DNA of 64,000 nt from NCBI RefSeq assembly GCF_963576615.1, contig NC_088709.1:14390764-14454763 (forward strand), given 5' to 3'. The notes under the pieces are model-generated. The model was given only the letters and a program-made list of their open reading frames with translations, made no database searches and was not told where the DNA came from. The first letter of the stretch is position 1, and every line of letters starts with the position of its first letter. The stretch is from Watersipora subatra (taxonomy: Eukaryota; Bryozoa; Gymnolaemata; Cheilostomatida; Watersiporidae). A program made the translations under genes and the position numbers. Below, piece after piece: positions 21,922-24,306 of this stretch.

Positions 21922-24306
21922 ATGTCTCGTCTAATGAGGCCGCCTAATACATCTTTATTTGTCCGCAACGTTCCAGACTATGCCAGGTAGTAATGATTTA
22001 GTTATGCGTTTTGTTGTAGGCGTTTTACCATTTGTAAATTTATATGTAAAAAATGTCTTTCGTAACACATTAAAAAGACATATATTCTATCTACAATTTT
22101 ATCATTGTAAAAGAATGTTGTTAATATGCGTTTAATAGCTAATGTATTATCTAGTATCTGCTCTGTATTAATACCGTTATAGTGTAGATCATTTTGTACT
22201 GCGCTTTGCGGTAAATATTGGTATTGTTATATTGTTTTTAGGACTGACGAACTACGTGATTTATTTGGTAAATATGGCCCACTGAAGGATGTCTATGTTC
22301 CCTTGGACTATTACACGCGTCGTCCCAGAGGCTTTTGTTACGTACAATATCCTTGCCCTTACACCACTTTTTCATGGTTTGTATACGTTGACGGTATTAA
22401 CATTATAACAATTTTGTTTTCTCAGATCCAATATTAAAAAAAGATCAAAGGGAAAGAGCCGTAAAGAGGCCACGCTGATAAGTGTTAGAGAAAGACAGAG
22501 CAGAGGGTTTGCCAAGCTAAAAAGTACAGTTCTGTAATTGATCCATACAGCACAGATTAACTATGAAAAGAATTACAGACAAGCTCTGACAGCTACAGAA
22601 AAGAATACTGCAGCCTCTCACACCGAATGCTACTGGCAGAGTCGGTTGCTATGGTGGTGCATTCAAAGTGATGGAGCTAAAGCTTCTCTCGGTATTCTTT
22701 TCTCAAAATGTGGTTTTGGCTCAGTACTTTAAATGTAAAGCGGTAACTGTAGTAGTTTTTTTCTGGGTCTTGGTGGTTACACATTATACCGTTTAGCATC
22801 TTCTTTGTCCTTGACCTTGCGAGTGTAAGTATGAAGATGAACGAGATGCCGAGGATGCTCTGCACTACCTAGACAAAACCAAATTTCTTGGCAGAGAGCT
22901 GGAGATTGAGTTTGCTAGAGGTGACCGTAAAAGTGAGTTGTTTGCTATGGTATTACCATGCACCACACAAGATTGTTCCATTTTAATCACTGTCATTTTT
23001 ATTCATGATTGTCTGAAGTGCTGCTTGGATTTTATGGTCGCAAAATAGCAACATAGTAGCTGTTCTAAGTGTAGGGCACTCACTGAGTTACTTTATACTG
23101 CCCCACAATCTCTTATAATGTTGTTTCTATTGACAACAATACATTTGTGTCTATTAATTATGTAAGTTTAATTAAATGATTCAAACGCATCATTTCAAAG
23201 TAGATCCTGAATAAAGGCACATGTACTGATACATCACTGCAAATGTGTATGTATTTTTAATATACCAGAGTCATCCATTGGAATCATTTGTTCATTGTGA
23301 TGTACGTGTTCTCCAGATCAAATTTTTAAGATGTATTTTCTGCTCGTTTATTGTCTTCACATGTACCGAAACATAGACTGCATGATTTATAGGCCCTGGC
23401 CAGATGAGGGGAAGATATGGAGGCGGAGGAGGAGGAGGTGGTGGAAGGTATGGTGGTGGAGGTGGGCGCTACAGAGAGAGACCCAGATACCGCTCGTGAG
23501 TTGAGTTTATGTTGTTGCTCTGTCATTCTCATCTGTCGGAATTGTGCAAAAATCATGGGTAACATCTTTTGCAAGCAGTGCCAATTTTATACGCATATCT
23601 CCAGTTCTAAATGATATAACTTTAGGCGAAGCTATAGCCCTAGAAGACGCAGTCGAAGCAGAAGTCGTTCAAGGAGGCGTTCTCGCTCCAGGTCATACGA
23701 TAACAAACGTTCTAGGTCTCGCTCTCATGGATCTAGGGATCGCTCACTTTCTCCAAAACCAAAGTCGTGAGTAGTTTTGCTCGAAAACAGTCTCTAATGT
23801 CAAGTATAATCAATAACTACTGAATACAAGCATTTTATTTGAAACCACAAAACGATACTGCACACGTTGTAACTCAAGCTTTTTAATAAGTTCTCGACAA
23901 TAGTTCTACAAATTATACAGAGTGGTCTTGCAGTATTTCTATTTGTTCTTTGTACACCCAGGTTACCAAGTAGCCGATGTTTAGTCAATTAGCTGTGAGA
24001 AACCAAAATTTTGATTTTGTGGTCATTCAGATGGAAGGGAGACAGTTTAGGAAATTATACAGAATGCATGCATGTTAATCAGATGTTTTTATGTAATTCG
24101 ATATAGTATGCAAATGTTGTAGTAGAAGCAGATCTGGCAGTTACGGGAGACGGTCCCGTAGTCGAGACAAGAATGGCCATGGTGATAGCCCGAGAAGACG
24201 TGGAAGTATGAGGAGAGATAGTCCAAGGGATGAGAGTCCTCCTCCGCCCATGAGACGCATGAGTCTAAGTAGATCCCGTTCTGGCTCACGCGGATCACTT
24301 CGCTAA
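21922..24306 (+). CDS. SRSF10-like: SRSF10-like serine/arginine-rich splicing factor, 6 exons, 233 aa
   Basis: A nuclear SR protein that binds pre-mRNA and regulates splice-site choice. Exons: 21922-21986, 22242-22346, 22829-22932, 23393-23495, 23626-23766, 24123-24306. The RRM covers about residues 10-87: RNP2 LFVRNV (12-17), the SRSF10/SRSF12 signature [16 protein letters not shown], and RNP1 RGFCYVQY (51-58), ending FARGDRK. A Gly-rich linker follows (exon 4), then an RS domain with [16 protein letters not shown] and a second RS-rich stretch ending SGSRGSLR and stop. RRPRGFx[13 protein letters not shown] and FARGDRK are hallmarks of SRSF10/12 and distinguish it from SRSF2. The Gly-rich linker is unlike vertebrate SRSF10. 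Intron 2 begins ATATCCTT and has a U12-like branch site. A purine-rich candidate exon lies inside it. Start chosen at the ATG giving [17 protein letters not shown]. Confidence 0.93.
22347..22828 (+). other. U12-type (minor) intron of the SRSF10-like gene
   Basis: The 5' end ATATCCTTG matches the minor-spliceosome donor consensus RTATCCTTT at 8 of 9 positions. TCCTTGAC at 22808-22815 matches the U12 branch site, with the branch A at 22814, 14 nt before the exon. Protein frame (VQ then [11 protein letters not shown]) requires the downstream exon to contribute one base before TAT, so the intron would end AA instead of AC or AG. The exact 3' boundary is therefore uncertain by a base. Confidence 0.7.

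Follow-up and report, generated by a model that had tools for sequence, protein, structure and literature searches.

The window analysed here, a 64,000-nucleotide stretch of the Watersipora subatra genome, carries on its plus strand (21922-24306) an SRSF10-like SR-protein gene whose six coding exons join into a protein of 232 amino acids with no inner stop (Table 1). The product has one N-terminal RRM (Pfam RRM_1, about 74-76.6 bits), followed by an RS-rich tail. Four of the five introns between the coding exons have GT-AG ends, the exception being the intron at 22347-22828. When the 784-Mb genome was searched with the first 102 amino acids, three of the five matches were the gene's own exons and the other two were distant RRM genes (37% and 34% identity); this protein search returned no retrocopy or paralogue that would show the spliced product. 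By this measure the gene appears to be the only one of its kind detected there. Collections of prokaryote and viral contigs were also searched, in case eukaryotic contamination had brought SRSF10 genes into them; 107 and 16 stretches fitted the peptide pattern, and no SRSF10 gene was confirmed among them.

A PDB sequence search placed SRSF2 as the top SR protein (67.4 bits) among the best 60 of 269 matches, and its alignment crosses the exon boundary free of gaps. Among the same best 60 of 269 matches, no chain is named SRSF10 in today's nomenclature; PDB 2cqc carries the old name of TRA2-beta. The name SRSF10 therefore rests on gene structure and on similarity around RNP1, where we take the protein to be nearly identical to human SRSF10.

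Table 1 Coding exons of the SRSF10-like gene and splicing signals in and around its second coding intron.
Feature	Position	Strand	Remarks
Exon 1, coding part	21922..21986	+	starts ATG, ends CAG/GTAGTA
Exon 2, 105 nt	22242..22346	+	GTACA end, then minor donor
Predicted U12-type (minor) intron, AT-AA, phase 2, 482 nt	22347..22828	+	motifs and reading frame
U12-type 5′ splice site ATATCCTTG	22347..22355	+	motif; U11 pairing possible
Candidate downstream major donor ATG/GTTTGT	22377..22378	+	weak, score -1.33; putative
Candidate major 3′ splice site: TATTAAC branch-like site (22395) and TTTTGTTTTCTCAG	22395..22425	+	score 1.39
Purine-rich tract, start of candidate poison exon, candidate SRSF10 enhancer	22426..22510	+	has AAAGACAGA at 22491
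U12-type branch site GTCCTTGAC	22807..22815	+	motif; U12 pairing possible
GTAAGTAT, U1-like donor overlapping minor 3′ splice site	22825..22832	+	possible poison-exon donor
Exon after minor intron, 104 nt	22829..22932	+	
Coding exon, Gly-rich linker	23393..23495	+	
Coding exon, RS domain	23626..23766	+	
Last coding exon, to stop	24126..24306	+	

Elsewhere in the window, the plus strand holds an AAA ATPase exon at 47590-47940 (Pfam AAA, 21.3 vs 21.2 bits) that looks NSF-like by eye. Judged likewise by eye, 19940-20431 and 14296-14862 (minus strand) look like fragments of non-LTR retrotransposon reverse transcriptase, the latter without a Pfam hit. A minisatellite-like block at 9653-11002, built of repeats of SNQMTDRVDRDVP (ISIYSISHLITRY on the other strand), has long open frames on both strands; a second repeat block, at 13072-13506, also has open frames in both directions.

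The intron that follows exon 2 bears the signals of the minor spliceosome. The donor core ATATCCTT at 22347 matches RTATCCTT exactly, and the branch site has one mismatch to TTCCTTRAC, with 13 nt between the element and the exon at 22829; the branch adenosine is probably 22814, 14 nt ahead of the last intron base. In U12-type introns this spacing from branch site to 3′ end is about 8-21 nt. The 3′ end reads GTCCTTGACCTTGCGAGTGTAA/G (GTGTAA/G), and in the computed product removal of 22347-22828 joins GTACA to GTATGAAG, restoring RNP1 and the full-length protein. Exon start 22829 retains RNP1 as RGFCYVQY, judged against the consensus of that motif, and sets the following exon to 104 nt. Nine in-frame exon starts (22817 to 22841) were compared for the donor at 22347, and 22829 alone leaves a terminus, AA, that belongs to the known A-type set of AC, AA, AG and AT (PMC8280824). 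Across the junction the codons are CA/G TAT GAA, where the G is 22829; the sequence-only reading had held that one base was needed before TAT, and with it the 232 codons indeed run uninterrupted. Its AT-AA end agrees likewise with the frame, RNP1 and the 104-nt exon, so far as sequence can tell, while the extent that it gave (22342 to 22830) correctly located an intron whose predicted ends lie slightly inside those limits. The sequence comes from a single assembly, in which a sequencing error at 22828 is possible.

Neither motif exceeds its chance frequency in the window: RTATCCTT occurs 5 times against 5.78 expected (about 4e-5 per position), and TTCCTTRAC with at most one mismatch 31 times against 31.09 (2.4e-4 per position). 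Both, however, lie at boundaries that are fixed independently by the reading frame, and so it is their placement, not their frequency, that departs from chance. Multiplying the motif frequencies in the window, with 8-21 nt as the usual branch-site range, puts at the order of 1e-7 the chance that the exon end set by the codons carries an exact donor and that a branch site also lies 8-21 nt ahead of the exon start that they set. Searched as a repeat, the intron matched the genome once, at itself.

Two similar motif pairs were seen on the minus strand of the window. Between 52339 and 52104, ATATCCTT is followed 227 nt on by TTCATTGAC (pair 52339/52112), a possible second minor intron, and a further ATATCCTT with a branch-like partner forms the pair 24535/24053. 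A genome-wide search for short minor introns with a tight pattern gave three places, the same number as its reversed control, and these were set aside as chance.

The minor spliceosome might nevertheless cut this intron at other ends, either shifted by one base (TA-AG, giving CAA TAT) or using both AA and the adjacent AG, and we consider this improbable. A TA-AG intron would yield a protein identical to the AT-AA product, but it conflicts with the A of ATATCCTT as intron base 1, which is set by the pairing of U11 and U6atac. AT-AG belongs to the known A-type ends (PMC8280824), and the AG one base beyond, at 22829, could be used by the minor spliceosome, a point against the AA end; an intron ending there would, however, shift the frame after 56 codons and meet a stop after codon 70. 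The predicted mRNA junctions differ, being GTACAGTATG (CAG) for AT-AA, GTACAATATG (CAA) for TA-AG and GTACATATG for AT-AG. Very improbable too, in our judgement, is a major GT-AG intron removed by the U2 spliceosome from TAC/GTACAA (22342) to the AG at 22823 or 22829: it leaves the frame open (232 amino acids with VQ turned into CK from start 22824, or 230 without VQ from start 22830, TAC being joined to TGTAAG or TATGAAG), but it gives no account of the exact ATATCCTT or the branch site, makes the next exon 109 or 103 nt instead of 104, damages RNP1 (the RRM_1 score of 76.6 bits for VQ falls slightly, to 74.2, for CK and to 61.7 when VQ is missing) and requires a GT whose score of -6.92 is equalled or beaten by two thirds of plus-strand GTs (acceptor and donor scores throughout use general splice-site frequencies, not trained on Watersipora subatra). 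We conclude with high confidence that the second coding intron of the SRSF10-like gene is a minor AT-AA intron; U11 and U12 would recognise ATATCCTT and GTCCTTGAC, and splicing would yield the full-length SRSF10-like protein.

The genome appears equipped for such splicing. When the genome was searched and the best candidates scored, U12 (112.5 bits), U6atac (100.4 bits) and U11 (99.4 bits) each had a single locus, all three above their Rfam cut-offs; for U4atac the candidate reaches 52.6 bits, 0.4 bits short of its cut-off of 53. The U6atac core AAAGGAGAG is present. The U11 5′ end could pair with the donor (TCCTT:AAGGG, one G-U), and six bases of U12 could pair with the branch site (TCCTTG:TAAGGA, one G-U). 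Within the window itself, an Rfam scan at the gathering threshold detected no RNA family. The sequence-only reading would have given up its intron had U12-type snRNAs been absent from the species; the three loci over cut-off point instead to the presence of a minor spliceosome, and with the donor, branch site, spacing and frame they bear out the U12-type assignment. CENATAC, which in human cells favours AT-AN introns (PMC8280824), gave no match in the genome at the default E-value and three at a relaxed one. The best of these, after scoring of the best candidates, is a CENATAC/CCDC84-like N-terminal zinc-finger exon (G000:C1:78919348-78919476; L014, L017) with 25.4 bits against a curated cut-off of 25.3, and a second-finger-like frame (TIWCYACKETVLLHSC) lies about 200 bases beyond it.

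In mouse and human, Srsf10 contains a minor intron that takes part in autoregulation (Meinke et al. 2020, PMC7244321), and for these two species the vertebrate intron that the sequence-only reading had invoked is accurately described. According to the same article, the mouse AT-AC intron spans exon 2 to a coding exon named exon 4, and the exon 3 in its own numbering measures at least 356 nt; the mouse exon 3 stated elsewhere as 104 bp (PMC9648972) would thus be the coding exon that follows the minor intron. Here, a 104-nt exon after the minor intron is obtained only with the AA end. Through this shared length, the proposal that the intron sits where vertebrates have theirs, and specifically where mouse Srsf10 has its minor intron, is supported indirectly. 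The two loci are thus alike in combining an SR gene, an A-type minor intron after exon 2 (as in human too) and, if the mouse exon is rightly identified (PMC9648972), a next coding exon of 104 nt, but they differ in the intron end, which is AC in mouse and AA here.

Non-canonical ends make up about 3.8% of conserved animal minor introns, and AT-AA is the commonest of them in animals and plants as described in PMC10639083, so the AA end found here is uncommon but familiar. The terminal pair had been called rare, which is right, although it is less odd than that wording implied. The intron shares the A-type donor and terminal AA of the AT-AA introns in that source, and no structural difference from them was noticed; the AG one base downstream is a feature of the present case. 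Among the matches listed in searches of the open-access literature, titles and abstract openings revealed no paper on the Srsf10 minor intron outside mammals, and the supplements of the pan-eukaryotic survey and of databases may contain it. What is newly seen here is a putative major-type 3′ splice site inside the minor intron, followed by a purine-rich tract.

This site, at 22425/22426, is the best-scoring major 3′ splice site in the minor intron and exceeds the gene's four major acceptors (0.44, -5.52, -7.66 and -6.16). Its score is reached by 5.6% of plus-strand AGs in the window, so that about two of the 38 AGs in the intron would be expected to do as well, and one was found. The major route in mouse leads into exon 3, of which nt 17-60 form a GA-rich SRSF10-dependent enhancer (PMC7244321), and this stretch was fixed beforehand by the mouse enhancer for the comparison made here. 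Of 480 AGs in the window (both strands) that score at least as high as 22425/22426 with the unrounded cut-off that we used (238 + 246 = 484 with a cut-off of 1.39), six, that site among them, have a purine content of 70.5% or more at nt 17-60, and the corresponding expectation for 482 nt is 0.023. When the score cut-off is relaxed to 1, 0, -1 and -3, this expectation rises to 0.026, 0.041, 0.060 and 0.090, and at cut-offs of 2 and 3, excluding the 22426 site, 4 of 400 and 0 of 217 AGs qualify. Over nt 1-85, a length of our own choosing, the purine content of the 22426 site is reached by itself alone among the 480.

The first 100 nt from 22426 contain four SRSF10-type GA hexamers of the published form [A/T/G]GA[A/G][A/G][A/G] (PMC9022966), and 1.8% of windows hold as many or more. 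By eye, the tract 22426-22510 lacks GAAGAG, which is the motif seen at SRSF10 peaks in mouse, and AAAGACAAA has a single one-mismatch copy in the minor intron against 30 per strand in the window. In one study, the surroundings of exons regulated by SRSF10 showed no over-representation of GA motifs (PMC5483951), and a GA tract is thus a weak predictor. On the donor side, the candidate at 22377 ranks below the gene's four major donors (0.29 to 4.14), is beaten by a GT inside exon 2 (22268, -0.44) and would leave an intron of 49 nt. The minor intron has no AATAAA, and its single ATTAAA, at 22433, lies too near the beginning of the exon; polyadenylation of the mouse type is thus without support here. 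Computed translations of the retained intron, or of the major route through 22426, stop after 58-86 codons. Mouse Srsf10 exon 3 also holds an unused minor donor; GTATTCTT at 22692, one mismatch from the minor donor, was given no weight as its counterpart (one against 0.32 expected in that stretch).

As in mouse Srsf10, then, a candidate internal exon would begin at a major 3′ splice site with a purine-rich start, and the major route is predicted to end in an early stop, which lies in the extended exon 2 in mouse and at the junction or shortly beyond here. SRSF10 bound to the tract just past 22426 would favour the unproductive route; hence the productive share would depend jointly on the SRSF10 level and on minor-spliceosome activity, as has been shown for mouse and human cells. 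We propose tentatively that this locus has the minor/major autoregulatory switch of mammals, and we give the proposal a little less than an even chance. An even chance falls to a plain constitutive minor intron, in which the AT-AA ends are real, the internal 3′ splice site and purine tract arose by chance and no autoregulatory exon exists. The ordinary score of the internal AG for this window, the weak downstream donor, the missing AATAAA and the motif survey (PMC5483951) agree with that account, as does a purine-tract expectation of only about 0.02 that grows to 0.09 with weaker AGs; the purine tract at the position of the mouse enhancer (PMC7244321) and its uniqueness over nt 1-85 among comparable AGs speak against it. 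Taken as a whole, the locus very probably holds an SRSF10 orthologue whose A-type minor intron lies at the mouse position and ends in AA, and the proposed switch would be the more tentative part of this reading.

The mouse exon 3 polyadenylates, whereas here a donor-like GTAAGTAT lies at the minor 3′ end; five perfect copies occur in the window on both strands, and the one at 22825 overlaps that end. Considered after the fact, this copy may serve a cassette exon as its donor, in which case U1 binding at 22825 and use of the minor 3′ splice site at 22828/22829 would be mutually exclusive, and the odd AA terminus would persist because its letters double as a major donor. It is unlikely, though conceivable, that the whole SRSF10 minor/major switch predates vertebrates in this form, as a cassette poison exon with its major donor overlapping the AA 3′ splice site. 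Drosophila prospero, as told in PMC8329584, likewise nests major sites and a purine-rich control element in an AT-type minor intron, but it yields two protein forms, whereas the major route here would yield a truncated one.

An AT-AA intron with an AG only one base past its end would offer a clean natural experiment on 3′ end choice by the minor spliceosome. In mammals, a single minor intron ties minor-spliceosome activity to SRSF10 and, via SRSF10, to other SR proteins (PMC7244321). If the minor intron and the major-type exon nested within it are old, animals would have coupled their two spliceosomes by way of an SR gene since ancient times.
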